A stretch of DNA of 64,000 nucleotides from Phycisphaerales bacterium (GTDB lineage Bacteria; Planctomycetota; Phycisphaerae; Phycisphaerales; JAGLTS01). The notes beneath the pieces are model-generated. The model saw nothing but the letters and a program-made list of their open reading frames with translations, did not search any database and was not told where the DNA came from. Positions 7,600 to 18,692 of the stretch are shown here, one piece after another. A program made the position numbers and the translations under genes. The DNA is taken from positions 1 through 64,000 of the forward strand of contig JAGLTS010000013.1 of the NCBI GenBank assembly GCA_023135165.1. The letters run 5' to 3'. Position 1 is the first letter of the stretch. Every line of letters starts with the position of its first letter.

Positions 7600-9348
7600 G
7601 TGACGGACGCGGCGCGACAGGACGAAGGCAGCGCATCGGCGGCGACGGGCAGGCGGCGGGTTCGCGTCGCGCGGTCGGCGGTGCTCGCGCTTCTGCATAT
7701 CGTGCTCTTCGCCGCTGCATTCCCGCCGTTTAACGTGTGGCCGACGATCTTCCTCGCGCTGATTCCCATCGCGATGCTCGCCGACCCGCAGCCTCGCCGG
7801 GCTTTCTGGCGGCCGGGGCTGATGATGTGGCTCGCGGGCATACTGCTCTACCTCTTCGAGCATCGTTGGCAGCTCCCCGTCAGCGCGGTCGGCTACCCAT
7901 TGGGGACGATGGTGATGGCGGCCTACCCAGCCTGCTTCGTCATCCTGCTCCGGGCGATCCGCAGGCGCTGTCCGAGGATTCCCCTGACATTGCTGGTTCC
8001 CACGATCTGGACGGCCCTGGAAGTGGTCCGCGGCGAGATTGCGTTCGGCGGATATGCGTTCTTCCTCCTCGCCCATCCCACCATCGCAGCGACCGCGCTG
8101 CCCCAGTGCGCGGATCTGCTCGGTACGTATGCGGTGTCGTTTCTTGTCGCCATGCCCGCAGGCGTGGTGCTGGATGTGCTGCGTGCGAGGCAAGCACGCC
8201 GGGGGCTGGCGCGATGCTGGATCGCCTTGACGGTCGGCGCGTATGTCATCGCACTCAGCTACGGCTCCTGGCGTCTGACACAGGCGCCCGATCCGGCGAC
8301 CGCGCGTACGCTGCATCTGGCGGCGGTGCAAACGAACGTGCCGCAGAGCAACAAGCTGAGGTGGTCACTCGAACAGGCTGAGGCGGACTTCCTGCGTGCC
8401 GCAGCACTGACCTGGGAGGCTGCGGAACTCGGCCCGCTCGATGCGATCGTCTGGCCCGAGACGATGGTGCCCACAGGGTTCGGCCTGAACCGTGAGGCGG
8501 TCGATGAAATGCGGCGAGAGCGGATCGTCGGTGCGGACTTCGCGGATGCCATCTGCTCGCTGGAGCAGGCTGTGCAGGAGCGCTACGGCGCCTTGCTCAT
8601 CGTCGGCGCGGCGGCGACGGAAGGCCTGCGATTCGAGCCGATCGAAGGTAGCCCGGAACGCCTGCACCCGACCTTTGACCGGCTGTTCAACTCCGTCTTT
8701 CTCATCCGCGATGGCGTGCAGAGCGAGCAGCGATACGACAAGCTCTATCTCACACCGTTCGGCGAGACGATCCCATACGTGAGCGGCATTGACTGGCTCG
8801 AAAGGCTTTTCCTGGTTGTCGGGGCGGGCGGCATGTCCTTTGACCTCTCACCCGGCGACGCCCCAGTCGCCCTGACGATTCCAACGAGCAACGGCCCGGT
8901 CCACGTCGGCACGCCGATCTGCTTTGAAGCAACCTCAGCGCGCATCTGTCGCAGGCTCGTCTACCAGTCCGGGCCGGGCTGGGGCAAGTACGCTTCGGCG
9001 CTCATCAACGTGACAAACGACGGGTGGTTCGGCGACGCGGTCGGCGGCAGGGAGCAGCACCTCCAGGCTGCCCGCTTCCGGTGCATCGAACTTCGCGTGC
9101 CGATGCTTCGTAGCGCCAACACCGGCATCAGCGCCGTGATCGACAGCAGCGGAAGGCTCATCGCCGCAGGCCCGATTGGCCGAAGTGAGTCCTGGAATGT
9201 CGATGGCGTGGTGCGAGGCGACCTCCCGCTCGATCCGCGAGTCTCGCTGTTCGGCCGACTCGGCGGCGTGTTCGGCTGGGCCGTGCTCGTAGCGTTGGCG
9301 ATAATCGGCTTCACCGCAGCCCTCGCAGGGCGAAAGGAACACACGTGA
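7600..9348 (+). CDS. lnt: Apolipoprotein N-acyltransferase
   Basis: Multiple TM segments then nitrilase domain: 'IVWPETMVPTGF', 'TPICFEATSARICRRLV', 'NVTNDGWFGDAVGGREQHLQAARFRCIELRVPMLRSANTGISAVID'; GTG start. Confidence 0.9.
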   Translation: MTDAARQDEGSASAATGRRRVRVARSAVLALLHIVLFAAAFPPFNVWPTIFLALIPIAMLADPQPRRAFWRPGLMMWLAGILLYLFEHRWQLPVSAVGYPLGTMVMAAYPACFVILLRAIRRRCPRIPLTLLVPTIWTALEVVRGEIAFGGYAFFLLAHPTIAATALPQCADLLGTYAVSFLVAMPAGVVLDVLRARQARRGLARCWIALTVGAYVIALSYGSWRLTQAPDPATARTLHLAAVQTNVPQSNKLRWSLEQAEADFLRAAALTWEAAELGPLDAIVWPETMVPTGFGLNREAVDEMRRERIVGADFADAICSLEQAVQERYGALLIVGAAATEGLRFEPIEGSPERLHPTFDRLFNSVFLIRDGVQSEQRYDKLYLTPFGETIPYVSGIDWLERLFLVVGAGGMSFDLSPGDAPVALTIPTSNGPVHVGTPICFEATSARICRRLVYQSGPGWGKYASALINVTNDGWFGDAVGGREQHLQAARFRCIELRVPMLRSANTGISAVIDSSGRLIAAGPIGRSESWNVDGVVRGDLPLDPRVSLFGRLGGVFGWAVLVALAIIGFTAALAGRKEHT

Positions 9349-14565: not shown

Positions 14566-14571
14566 GCGTGG

Positions 14572-14806
14572 GCAGAAGGGGCAAAGGCACAAAGGCACAA
14601 GTGCGATTCATATAATCCCTTTCGTCCGATCAACGTATCACGCACATCGCCCCCCGTATAGCCGCGACGCGCAGCGGAGCGCTGACCGCACAGACGTGTG
14701 CCATACGTTCCAAACGTAATGCAATACACAACCACCGCCGCCACGCAGCGCATCCCGCCGCCACGCGCCTTCCCCCCCTTCTGCCTTTGTGCCTATGCCC
14801 CTCTGC
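14572..14806. repeat. Imperfect inverted purine/pyrimidine-rich repeat arms
   Basis: 14572-14597 GCAGAAGGGGCAAAGGCACAAAGGCA versus 14782-14806 TGCCTTTGTGCCTATGCCCCTCTGC (near reverse complement). Confidence 0.55.
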
Positions 14807-14839
14807 CCCTTTCCCGCCTTCTGCCTGCCCCTTCCCCCA

Positions 14840-16957
14840 TCAATCCAGGCAAACACGGAAGCCGATGAGGAGGTTGCGGGTGGCCGGCGTGTCGATGCCG
14901 CGATACGCCGACTGGCAGCCCCACGGATTGCTGTACCAACTGCCGCCGCGCAACACGCGGTACGTGCCTGCTCGGGTATTGGTTGGGTCTTGTGCCGGGG
15001 AACGACCATAGTAGCCCGAATCATACCAATCCTGACACCATTCCCATACATTGCCGTGCATGTCATGCAAGCCCCAGGCGTTCGGCTGTTTCGACGCCAC
15101 CGGATTCGTCTCGTCGTTTGAGTTATCTTCGTACCACCCGTAGCGGCCGAGTCCGTCTTCATCATCGCCGAAACAGAATCGCGTCGTCATCCCCGCCCTG
15201 CACGCATATTCCCATTCCGCTTCCGACGGCAGACGGTACGTTCTGCCCTCCGAACGGCTGAGCTTCTCGCAGAACGCCACCGCATCGTCCCAGGACACTC
15301 GCTCCACAGGGAGGTCATCACCTTTGAATTCGCTTGGGTTCATTCCCATGACAGCGCGCCACTGTGCCTGTGTCACCTGTGTCACCCCCATGTAAAAGCC
15401 ACCCCTTAGCGTCACGCGGTGCTGCGGGCCTTCGTCGTCCTCATCCTCGTCGTCCTCATCCTCGTCGTCCTCATCCTCGTCGTCCTCATCCTCGTCGTCC
15501 TCATCCTCGTCGTCCTCATCCTCGTCGTCCTCATCCTCAGGGGTGCCCATCATGAACGTGCCCGGCTCGATGTGGACCAGTTCCATGCCGATTGAGTTGA
15601 TGAACGGCTCGCCGTATGTCGACACGCGCTCGAGACCTGATGAGGCAGTGCGCAGGCTCTCCTGCAACTCGTCCTGAAGTTCACCTGTGGACAGCCCGGC
15701 CTTCGCTGCGGTGATGGCCTCGTCGTACTCCCGCTTCTCAAGATGCGCCTTGGCTTGATCCAGCGCCGCTGTGGCCGTGCGGTATGCAGGCAGGTTCAGA
15801 CCGCACCCACCGCAATACTCGATGTCGATGCGGTTCTCTCGTGTGCACTTCGGGCATTTATGGAAGAGGCCAGAGCCGCACTTCTGACAGAACTGTACGT
15901 CGAGCGGGTTGTCGTAGCCGCAGTTGGGACACGCGCTTTCAGTGGAAGCCGTCACAGTCGGCGTCGTACGATCCTCTACTGCATCGCGCAGCGCTTCGCT
16001 GAGCGCCTTCGCGCTTGCGTAGCGCCGATCGGGATGCTCCTCCAGACACTTGCCGATGAGCTCACGCAGCTCGCTTGGTACGAGATCCAGTCGGACGATT
16101 CGCGGCTTCTGTCCCGTCGCCATGACGTACAGCGTCGCGCCGAGTGCGTAGATGTCGCTGCGCTCGTCAACGTGCTTGCCGCTGACAAGCTGCTCCGGCG
16201 CTGCGTAGAGCATCGTCCCCATGAGTGAACCGGTCATCGTGTACGCTGCATCCGCCGCCTGATCGCGCGCCAGGCCGAAGTCCGCGAGCTTCGGCGTGCC
16301 ACGATCCGTGAGCAGGACGTTTGCAGGCTTCACATCACGATGGATGATCCCCTTGTTATGGGCAACTGCCAGCGCATCGCAGAGTTGCCTGCCAATGTCG
16401 CACACACGCGCGATCGACAGTGCACCCTCCTGCTGAATCAACGCCTCAAGTGAGCCGCCCTCTACGAGTTCCATCTCAATCCAGAACGAGCCTTGCTCTT
16501 CCAGCACGTTGTAGATGCGGACGATGTTGAAATGGTCGAGCGCTGCGATCGTCCGGGCTTCGCGCCAGAACCGCTGCGCCGCGCGCTCATCACCCGCCCC
16601 GGTCGTCAGAAGCTGCTTGAGCGCAACGAGTCGGCCGAGCTTGCGATCGCGCGCCCGGTAGACGACACCCATCCCGCCTCGACCGATTTCCGTGAGTTCC
16701 TCGAATCGCTCGCCAACCAAAGCACCAGGCGCGACACCAGCGATCGTCCGCTCAAACTCATCCGGGGCCAGCCGACCCCCACGATCCCCATCACCCCCAC
16801 CACTCCGTCCATCGCGCGGGCTACCCTCACCTGATTCCAATGTGTGATCGAACTCATCCGGAGCACCCCCACCACCCCCACGACCTCGCCCGTCGCGCTG
16901 CTGCCCTTCACCTGATTCCAACGTGTGATCAAACTCATCTGGCGCCGGTCCGGGCAT
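14840..16957 (-). CDS. Serine/threonine protein kinase fused to zinc ribbon and formylglycine-generating-enzyme-like (SUMF1/FGE) domain
   Basis: Kinase motifs 'IHRDVKPANVLLTD', 'KLADFGLARD'; CxxC zinc ribbons; FGE 'GTFMMGTPEDE...RLPSEAEWEYACRAG...GNVWEWCQDWYD...VLRGGSW'; start at 16957 with AAAGGGG upstream. Confidence 0.85.
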   Translation of the reverse strand: MPGPAPDEFDHTLESGEGQQRDGRGRGGGGGAPDEFDHTLESGEGSPRDGRSGGGDGDRGGRLAPDEFERTIAGVAPGALVGERFEELTEIGRGGMGVVYRARDRKLGRLVALKQLLTTGAGDERAAQRFWREARTIAALDHFNIVRIYNVLEEQGSFWIEMELVEGGSLEALIQQEGALSIARVCDIGRQLCDALAVAHNKGIIHRDVKPANVLLTDRGTPKLADFGLARDQAADAAYTMTGSLMGTMLYAAPEQLVSGKHVDERSDIYALGATLYVMATGQKPRIVRLDLVPSELRELIGKCLEEHPDRRYASAKALSEALRDAVEDRTTPTVTASTESACPNCGYDNPLDVQFCQKCGSGLFHKCPKCTRENRIDIEYCGGCGLNLPAYRTATAALDQAKAHLEKREYDEAITAAKAGLSTGELQDELQESLRTASSGLERVSTYGEPFINSIGMELVHIEPGTFMMGTPEDEDDEDEDDEDEDDEDEDDEDEDDEDEDDEDEDDEGPQHRVTLRGGFYMGVTQVTQAQWRAVMGMNPSEFKGDDLPVERVSWDDAVAFCEKLSRSEGRTYRLPSEAEWEYACRAGMTTRFCFGDDEDGLGRYGWYEDNSNDETNPVASKQPNAWGLHDMHGNVWEWCQDWYDSGYYGRSPAQDPTNTRAGTYRVLRGGSWYSNPWGCQSAYRGIDTPATRNLLIGFRVCLD
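15433..15537. repeat. Seven perfect 15-bp tandem repeats (CGTCGTCCTCATCCT)n encoding (EDEDD)7
   Basis: Read directly, within the FGE domain of the kinase CDS. Confidence 0.97.
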
Positions 16958-17140
16958 CGTCGTCCCCTTTCGTCGCCGCAGTCTACACGACCGACGACTC
17001 CACATGCCCTACATGCTTCTCGGCGATTATCACCACCCTCACATCACCCCGCACCGCACGCACCATGCGCACCAGCACTGTCATCGCACCGCTTGCACGT
17101 ACATCCTCACCAATGCGCGCGCGATGCTGATCGAGCCTCG

Positions 17141-17229
17141 AAATGTCGCTCAAAACCGACCCAAAACGGGCCAAAACTGATCGAAAACGCGCCGAATCGA
17201 GCCAAAACCGGTCGAAACTCGCCCAAAAC
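17141..17229. other. Helically phased A-tract array (predicted intrinsically curved DNA)
   Basis: A-tract starts at 17141, 17152, 17163, 17173, 17184, 17195, 17204, 17215, 17225. Confidence 0.7.
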
Positions 17230-17345
17230 TCTGGCCCGATAACACGTTTTCGGCGATTCCGTGCGCACCGATCTGTCGTGCGGCCGTAATTTGGGCTGAA
17301 TACGGACCGCTGCGGCGCGCATCAGCGCAAAGGTACAATGCGGGC

Positions 17346-18692
17346 ATGTCCGATCTGTGGGCTGAGGAGCGGAGCAAGCGATGTCGAGCAGCCGAGCCGT
17401 TGGCTGCGCGGATGCGCCCTCGCACACTCGATGAGTTTGTCGGCCAGCGCCACATCCTGGGCGAAGGCAAGCTGCTGCGACGCATGCTCGAAGCGGGCAC
17501 GCTGACCAGCCTGCTCTTCCACGGCCCGCCCGGCACCGGCAAAACGACGCTCGCCCGGCTTATCGCCAGCCACACCGATGCCGCCTTCCACCAGGCAAGC
17601 GCACCGTTGATCGGCGTCAAGCAAATCCGCGAGATCATCACCGAGGCGACACGGCGCATGGGCGAGACCGGTCGCCGGACGATCCTGCTCCTCGACGAGA
17701 TCCACCGCTTCAACAAGGCGCAGCAGGATGTTCTGCTCGGCGATGTGGAGGCGGGGCTGCTCACGCTCATCGGCGCGACGACGGAAAACCCGTATTTCAC
17801 AGTGAATAGCGCCCTGGTGAGCAGGTCCACGCTGTTCCGTTTCGAGCCGTTGTCCGAAGACGACATCGCGGATGTGATCCGTCGGGCGGCGAGCGATCCG
17901 GAGCGAGGCTTCGGCGATCGCGACATCACACTGACCGACGAGGCTGTGCAACACTGGGCGACGATCAGCGACGGCGATGCGCGTCGGGCGCTGTCCGCAC
18001 TCGAGGTCGCTGTCCTTTCCATGCACAAGGACGGTGAGCAGCAGCTCGTCATCGACATGCGGATCGCGCAGGAGTCCATCCAGGCCAAGGCGATCGTGTA
18101 CGACGGCACGGGTGATCAGCACTACGACGTGATCTCCGCGTTCATCAAGTCGTTGCGGGGGTCCGATCCGGATGCGGCGATCTACTGGCTGGCGCTCATG
18201 ATCGAGGCAGGCGAGGACCCGCGGTTCATCGCCCGGCGATTGGCGATCCTGGCGAGCGAGGACATCGGCAACGCTGACCCGCGGGCACTGGAGCTGGCAG
18301 CGGCGACGTACACGGTGGTGGAACGGATCGGCATGCCCGAGGCGCAGCTCGCGCTCGCCCAGTGCACGACGTACCTCGCGCTGGCCCCGAAGTCCAATGC
18401 GTCAGCCAAGGCGCTGTGGCAGGCGCAGGAGGACATCCGTGAAGGCCGGACCCTCGATGTGCCCACGCCGTTGAAGGACTCGCACGCGCCCCCGGAAGCG
18501 GATGGCAGCCGACCTGGAAAGGGCTACGAGTACCCACACAACAGGCCCGACGCGTGGAGCGATCAGACACACCTGCCCGGCGAGAGGCAGTACTATCACC
18601 CGACCGACCGCGGCGTCGAAAAACGACTGGCTGAACATCTGGCGCAACTGCGGGCCAAACGTCGAAGAAACGGGATTGGATCAGACCCATGA
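17346..18692 (+). CDS. rarA: Replication-associated recombination protein A (RarA/MgsA AAA+ ATPase)
   Basis: 'RMRPRTLDEFVGQRHILGEGKLLRRML', Walker A 'FHGPPGTGKTTLARLIA', 'LLLDEIHRFNKAQQDVLL', 'LIGATTENPYF'. Confidence 0.92.
   Translation: MSDLWAEERSKRCRAAEPLAARMRPRTLDEFVGQRHILGEGKLLRRMLEAGTLTSLLFHGPPGTGKTTLARLIASHTDAAFHQASAPLIGVKQIREIITEATRRMGETGRRTILLLDEIHRFNKAQQDVLLGDVEAGLLTLIGATTENPYFTVNSALVSRSTLFRFEPLSEDDIADVIRRAASDPERGFGDRDITLTDEAVQHWATISDGDARRALSALEVAVLSMHKDGEQQLVIDMRIAQESIQAKAIVYDGTGDQHYDVISAFIKSLRGSDPDAAIYWLALMIEAGEDPRFIARRLAILASEDIGNADPRALELAAATYTVVERIGMPEAQLALAQCTTYLALAPKSNASAKALWQAQEDIREGRTLDVPTPLKDSHAPPEADGSRPGKGYEYPHNRPDAWSDQTHLPGERQYYHPTDRGVEKRLAEHLAQLRAKRRRNGIGSDP

Follow-up and report, generated by a model that had tools for sequence, protein, structure and literature searches.

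RIB/RIP elements are enterobacterial BIMEs with an IHF site; they are dispersed and intergenic, carry a bend between inverted arms, and often lie at the 3′-ends of genes. The element described here (element E), found next to rarA in the 64-kb window (the whole stretch of DNA analysed, 64,000 nucleotides), resembles them in being a dispersed intergenic repeat, often 3′ of genes, with a bend between inverted arms. It differs in that the bend is inbuilt, via 9–10 phased A-tracts, in that it has no REP motif, and in that it is linked on one side only to accessory islets; in other genomes, moreover, a similar architecture is built from unrelated sequences. REP and BIME sequences have been described (PMC2817692, PMC1525189, PMC2229807), as have small bacterial repeats with an IHF site (PMC2229807).

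Three other kinds of system offer partial parallels. In integrons, single accessory genes gather beside a fixed site (attI/attC), as they do at E; however, E is accompanied by no integrase scoring over the family cut-off, shows no folded attC-like stem over the array, and occupies about 43 separate chromosomal places with cargo in either orientation. Lambda-type att sites with bent arms share with E a core-like site at a chromosome junction and a curved arm on the element side, but E has no adjacent integrase, no second att site was found, and the islets often hold one gene. MITEs and Correia-type repeats are likewise short, with inverted ends and in some cases a site for a bending protein; E differs from them in lacking a target duplication and in its polar genomic context. 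A literature search on Planctomycetes A-tracts, dispersed repeats, integrons and defence hotspots returned no description of such elements, although it covered open-licence papers only and is hence no proof of novelty.

Architecture and predicted curvature of the element

The minimal element consists of 9–10 helically phased A-tracts and a conserved GTCCGATAACAC block, placed between the inverted repeats TGCGCGCGCGA and TCCGTGCGCA (Table 1). These terminal repeats are imperfect and ~10 bp long; MITEs likewise have terminal inverted repeats. Most copies hold a further TGCGCAC site within a left extension; in copies L086, L091, L105, L106 and L109, which have a different left flank, similarity to the other copies extends leftward only as far as the left inverted repeat or its immediate vicinity. 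No target-site duplication was found at the ends of E, where common words were no longer than those shared between copies. The only long-range pairing in the consensus fold joined the two outer arms, the rest being short stems, and just 1 of 17 pairs was compensated; the outer-arm pairing is more readily explained by imperfect inverted repeats at the DNA level than by an RNA structure. A structured RNA was rejected, since an Rfam scan of the region was empty and the fold lacked covariation support. No REP-like motif was present in the alignment, the arms being inverted repeats of the TGCGC type.

Table 1. Positions, within the window, of element E, its parts and its neighbours
Feature	Position	Strand	Evidence or remark
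Accessory islet left of E (kinase-FGE gene and flanking repeats)	14566..17113		Kinase adjoins rarA in 0/26 relatives
Islet gene, Ser/Thr kinase with FGE-sulfatase domain (Pkinase + FGE)	14840..16957 (about)	-	Domain matches
Left extension with outer CATGCGCACCA site	17048..17113	+	In most copies, not all
Minimal element E, ~155 bp	17114..17268	+	Inverted repeat to inverted repeat; 43-copy alignment
Left inverted-repeat arm TGCGCGCGCGAT	17114..17125	+	Pairs with right arm in consensus fold; TGCGC nearly invariant
Nine phased A-tracts (curved DNA)	17141..17228	+	Position check, curvature model, conservation in copies
Conserved block GYCCGATAACAC	17234..17245	+	Almost no variation in alignment columns 0 to +11
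Last phased tract, TTTT	17247..17250	+	AAAA instead in 8/41 copies
Right inverted-repeat arm TTCCGTGCGCAC	17257..17268	+	End of conservation across copies
Core gene rarA (MgsA_C), right of E	17346..18692	+	Domain match; partly conserved gene order

Phased A-tracts are an established source of intrinsic curvature. Rechecking the sequence gave the tract starts and spacings listed in the initial annotation, i.e. 17141, 17152, 17163, 17173, 17184, 17195, 17204, 17215 and 17225, separated by 11, 11, 10, 11, 11, 9, 11 and 10 bp. Its description of the tracts as mostly AAAA holds overall, except that those at 17141 and 17215 are AAA and that at 17195 is AA only (GAAT). When the whole window was subjected to 30 dinucleotide shuffles, the longest chain of phased A-tracts comprised three, and the phasing of AAA/TTT at 10.5 bp, 0.92 in the element, was 0.33 in shuffles and was equalled by none of 1000; a chance origin of the array is therefore excluded. 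A wedge model predicted a bend of ~163° over 120 bp, compared with 42 ± 21° in shuffles (wedge parameters of the Bolshoy set; absolute angles are approximate), making the element the most curved of the 3194 120-mers tested in the window. Tracts in helical phase together with a strong predicted bend are what is expected of intrinsically curved DNA. This curvature prediction, a check that the initial annotation had itself named, supports its claim of an intrinsic bend, as does the conservation of the A-tracts across copies.

Copies in the host genome and conservation of their shape

The initial annotation had treated the stretch as a site belonging to the spacer between rarA and the kinase gene. 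The array is indeed there, but it is one of 43 dispersed copies, whole or cut, recognised by an HMM over fetched stretches of the host genome (3.9 Mb in 119 contigs, 92% complete). A similarity search of this genome with the A-tract stretch yielded ~40 copies with 82–92% identity on both strands, and a motif search yielded 41 places, with none for the reversed control. Several copies are cut by contig ends, which fall inside E on contigs C24, C26, C31, C37, C38 and C61; the assembly was thus broken by the repeat, and long reads would be required to fix the number of copies and the lengths of the islets. No copy was found in 60 genomes of the same order, all from other families, known plasmids, phages and viral contigs gave no matches, and a genome collection returned three single matches in unrelated taxa, a chance level. 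The host genome also holds a second family of phased A-tracts, with two inverted copies on contig C6 (L160; 6634–6716, plus strand, and about 8907–8989, minus strand). Its right end is the same as that of E (GATCCGTGCGCAC) and its left arm matches (GCGCGCYGGATC), but its array is different.

The ungapped alignment of ~40 copies shows no indel from the first tract onwards to the right end, so that the spacing of the tracts is fixed. Substitutions were fewer in tract columns (0.047 per column over all of them) than in spacers (0.112; P = 2 × 10−4), and the three central As of the tracts were almost invariant (0.015). In four copies the first AAA is replaced by TTT, and in eight the last TTTT is replaced by AAAA at nearly the same place; in such swaps the tract is kept in phase on the other strand. 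The modelled end-to-end ratio, a lower value of which means more curvature, was 0.697 in the copies but 0.795 in the consensus carrying an equal number of random substitutions (40 simulations, minimum 0.783). Together with the substitution pattern, this modelling provides good evidence that shape, and not sequence alone, is maintained across the copies. One case in which the initial annotation would have abandoned a curved site was that of relatives keeping the sequence and losing the spacing; the opposite was found, both the copies and the arrays of other genomes keeping the spacing and not the sequence.

A polar genomic context and its possible readings

The minus-strand kinase gene and the plus-strand rarA diverge, as first annotated (the start of the kinase gene was chosen from the N-terminus conserved in L085). 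The order rarA-FTHFS ligase-YkuD is partly conserved, rarA being accompanied by FTHFS ligase and/or YkuD in 10 of 26 relatives of the order; neither mreD nor the kinase gene lies beside rarA in any of the 26 relatives with a rarA orthologue. Since the order downstream of rarA is partly conserved and the kinase gene is never adjacent, E stands at the break. Related kinase-FGE islets adjoin copies L084 and L085. Within the kinase gene, positions 15417–15553 hold a 15-bp tandem repeat in seven copies; it encodes an acidic linker, (DEDDE)n, that joins the kinase/zinc-ribbon part to the FGE domain. A 25-bp inverted repeat, AGGGGCAAAGGCACAAAGGCACAAG, lies at 14577–14601 and 14778–14802, between mreD and the 3′-end of the kinase gene, and other islets (L084, L085 and L094) have related sequences at their far ends.

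All copies but one lie outside called genes, the exception (L120) involving a weak gene call. When every copy was turned to the orientation seen in the window, the 3.5 kb to the left had a foreign composition (GC ~0.60, raised tetranucleotide divergence) and the right side matched the background. The Kullback–Leibler (KL) divergence was greater on the left in 29 of 32 copies (P = 7 × 10−7; GC 0.604 left versus 0.636 right), and in 26 of 31 when the background was taken from the window alone; codon scores, obtained with a home-made gene finder, agreed (P = 9 × 10−4). Copies L090 and L103 have no compositional islet. The atypical left-hand DNA extends for ~3 kb and carries accessory or defence-like genes: left neighbours include kinase-FGE, FG-GAP, TIR-TPR, STAND, methylase-Mrr and DUF4268 (PDC-S11 in PADLOC) genes and a Y1 transposase gene, and are accessory, many of them of the conflict or defence type. 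Right neighbours, in contrast, are housekeeping genes, encoding FtsY, a XerD-like protein, TruD, CysC, Tgt, Ndk, S7, S9, PanC, GuaA, Pcm, a class II tRNA synthetase and RarA. In five copies whose left flanks are related, the right flanks belong to types R0, R1, R2 and R4, with one unclassified; left and right flanks therefore reassort across E, which behaves as a junction. Co-inheritance of E with its cargo was rejected on this ground, and also because the array sequence is independent of cargo type.

Curvature can aid promoters, and the initial annotation, noting the position of the array between divergent genes, had proposed that it might be a curved promoter. For rarA or the kinase gene such a role is very improbable. 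The copies lie beside ~40 unrelated genes, the 3′-end of the right gene faces E in 27 of 40 copies and the 5′-end of the left gene does so in 24 of 36, and with gene orientations so mixed no single promoter role fits; what E constantly accompanies is the border of an islet rather than a start codon. A private rarA promoter was rejected given the 43 copies.

We favour the reading in which E, being intrinsically curved, marks the border of accessory islets or serves as their attachment site, with a probability of roughly 0.45. In this model, E presents a curved segment of ~110 bp between two inverted TGCGC-type sites, which a near-half-circle bend would bring together. A protein complex, formed by a recombinase or an architectural protein, might assemble on the juxtaposed arms and define the point at which accessory islets join, or exchange at, the chromosome. 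With the junction so defined, E would remain beside the core gene and the cargo across from it would change.

The main rival is an architectural role similar to that of BIME/RIB elements, in which nucleoid proteins or gyrase bind to a bent site flanked by palindromic sites, or the bent site helps to form 3′-ends where core transcription units end, with accessory DNA gathering passively at tolerant intergenic spots. The copies are dispersed and intergenic, with a bent core between inverted arms, they lie downstream of the right gene in the 27 copies mentioned above, and the small repeats with an IHF site offer a precedent. E may be a bending site or a nucleoid-protein site, the latter as also proposed initially. 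The architectural role would account for the position and the bend but not for the one-sidedness, since passive build-up should load both sides; we consider it rather unlikely. Curved A-tract DNA beside horizontally acquired genes, with a constant polarity, would also suit a silencer or insulator, i.e. a curved nucleation site keeping foreign islets silent or apart from the core operon. Each islet would, however, need to gain such a site anew, and the left genes run in both orientations, which leaves this reading quite improbable. Scarcely better placed is a MITE-like non-autonomous transposon whose copies have spread into intergenic space: the copy number, the inverted-repeat ends and the minimal homology from the left arm in some copies agree with it, but target-site duplications are absent, no autonomous partner was found, and one would not expect such a transposon to keep a constant polarity with respect to islets and core genes.

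Against the attachment-site reading, no recombinase tied to E was found in the host genome. Searches of that genome for an integron integrase (TIGR02249) gave nothing over the cut-off, only XerC/D-type matches and one decayed fragment, and no dif-like site was found at ≤3 mismatches to the consensus tried, which was proteobacterial only. The fragment (C60:18572–18814; L098 6573–6815) covers the C-terminal active-site region of a tyrosine recombinase ~2.4 kb left of a copy of E; integron-integrase-like by eye and lying inside the islet next to that copy, it is the only enzyme trace. The far ends of islets yielded no second copy of the E site and carry other, mosaic repeats; a far-end repeat common to all islets was rejected, those found being common to subsets only. 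A REP-like palindrome, GCCGCAGGAACTCGTTCCTGCGG, is dispersed in the far-side flanks of islets (L093, L087, L088 and L102), and a Y1 (IS200/RAYT-like) transposase gene adjoins copy L114; the two may reflect a separate RAYT/REP system.

Arrays of the same geometry in other genomes

A pattern based on geometry (eight AAA with the same spacing) matched 17 of 298 genomes of the class, probably Phycisphaerae of the Planctomycetota, including the host (16 of 297 others), compared with 2 of 351 genomes in the rest of the phylum, each at a single place (Fisher's test, P = 2 × 10−4). The look-alike arrays in the other class genomes are of unrelated sequence and constitute independent families. Multi-copy arrays, each with its own family sequence, were present in genomes G070 (5 places), G189 (12 copies), G243 (about 30), G123, G263 and G272.

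Several of these arrays adjoin restriction or defence genes (HisA, GuaB, XerD and MiaB assignments were made by eye from sequence). In G189 they lie beside a cytosine methylase and an HNH endonuclease with an EcoRII-like domain, near hisA/guaB; in G150 an array adjoins a subtilase + AAA pair; and in G243 two inverted arrays enclose an OLD-like nuclease gene, a XerD-like and a MiaB-like gene lying on opposite sides. One-sidedness of GC content was seen in G243 (0.473 versus 0.430, P = 8 × 10−4), where the islet, judged by the A-rich strand, lies on the side opposite to that found for E, and was not significant in G189 (5/10); both cases count against the border reading, as do copies L090 and L103. 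TGCGC-type flanks recur in G038, G243 and G272; in G243, TGCGCA was enriched (8/26 left and 5/26 right flanks, 0.4 expected). They are absent from G189, so TGCGC arms are not universal.

A wider proposal, which we advance tentatively and regard as rather unlikely, is that of a class-wide, distributed platform for gene acquisition: tens of chromosomal sites per genome would be marked by curved DNA that is variable in sequence and conserved in geometry (phased A-tracts, with TGCGC-type sites in several genomes), and at each of them, next to housekeeping genes, a recombinase would insert or swap one accessory or defence gene at a time, always on the same side. If true, accessory and defence islets of a poorly studied class could be sought by a signature in DNA shape instead of sequence, and the existence of a protein reading that shape would be suggested. 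Whether an intrinsically curved element serves as an acceptor or border site for single-gene islets is a testable question. On a more modest reading, E would still represent a new, class-restricted family of curved intergenic repeats with helical spacing under selection.

On contig C27 of G243 (L159, 5755–8501), two inverted arrays enclose one low-GC OLD-like nuclease gene, an arrangement that resembles a transposon-like unit. The 3′-ends of tRNA genes are classical places of integration, and on contig C39 of G243 (L218, about 1430–1490) an array follows shortly after the apparent 3′-end of a tRNA gene (GGTTCGATTCCCTTCGTCTCCA, assigned by eye).
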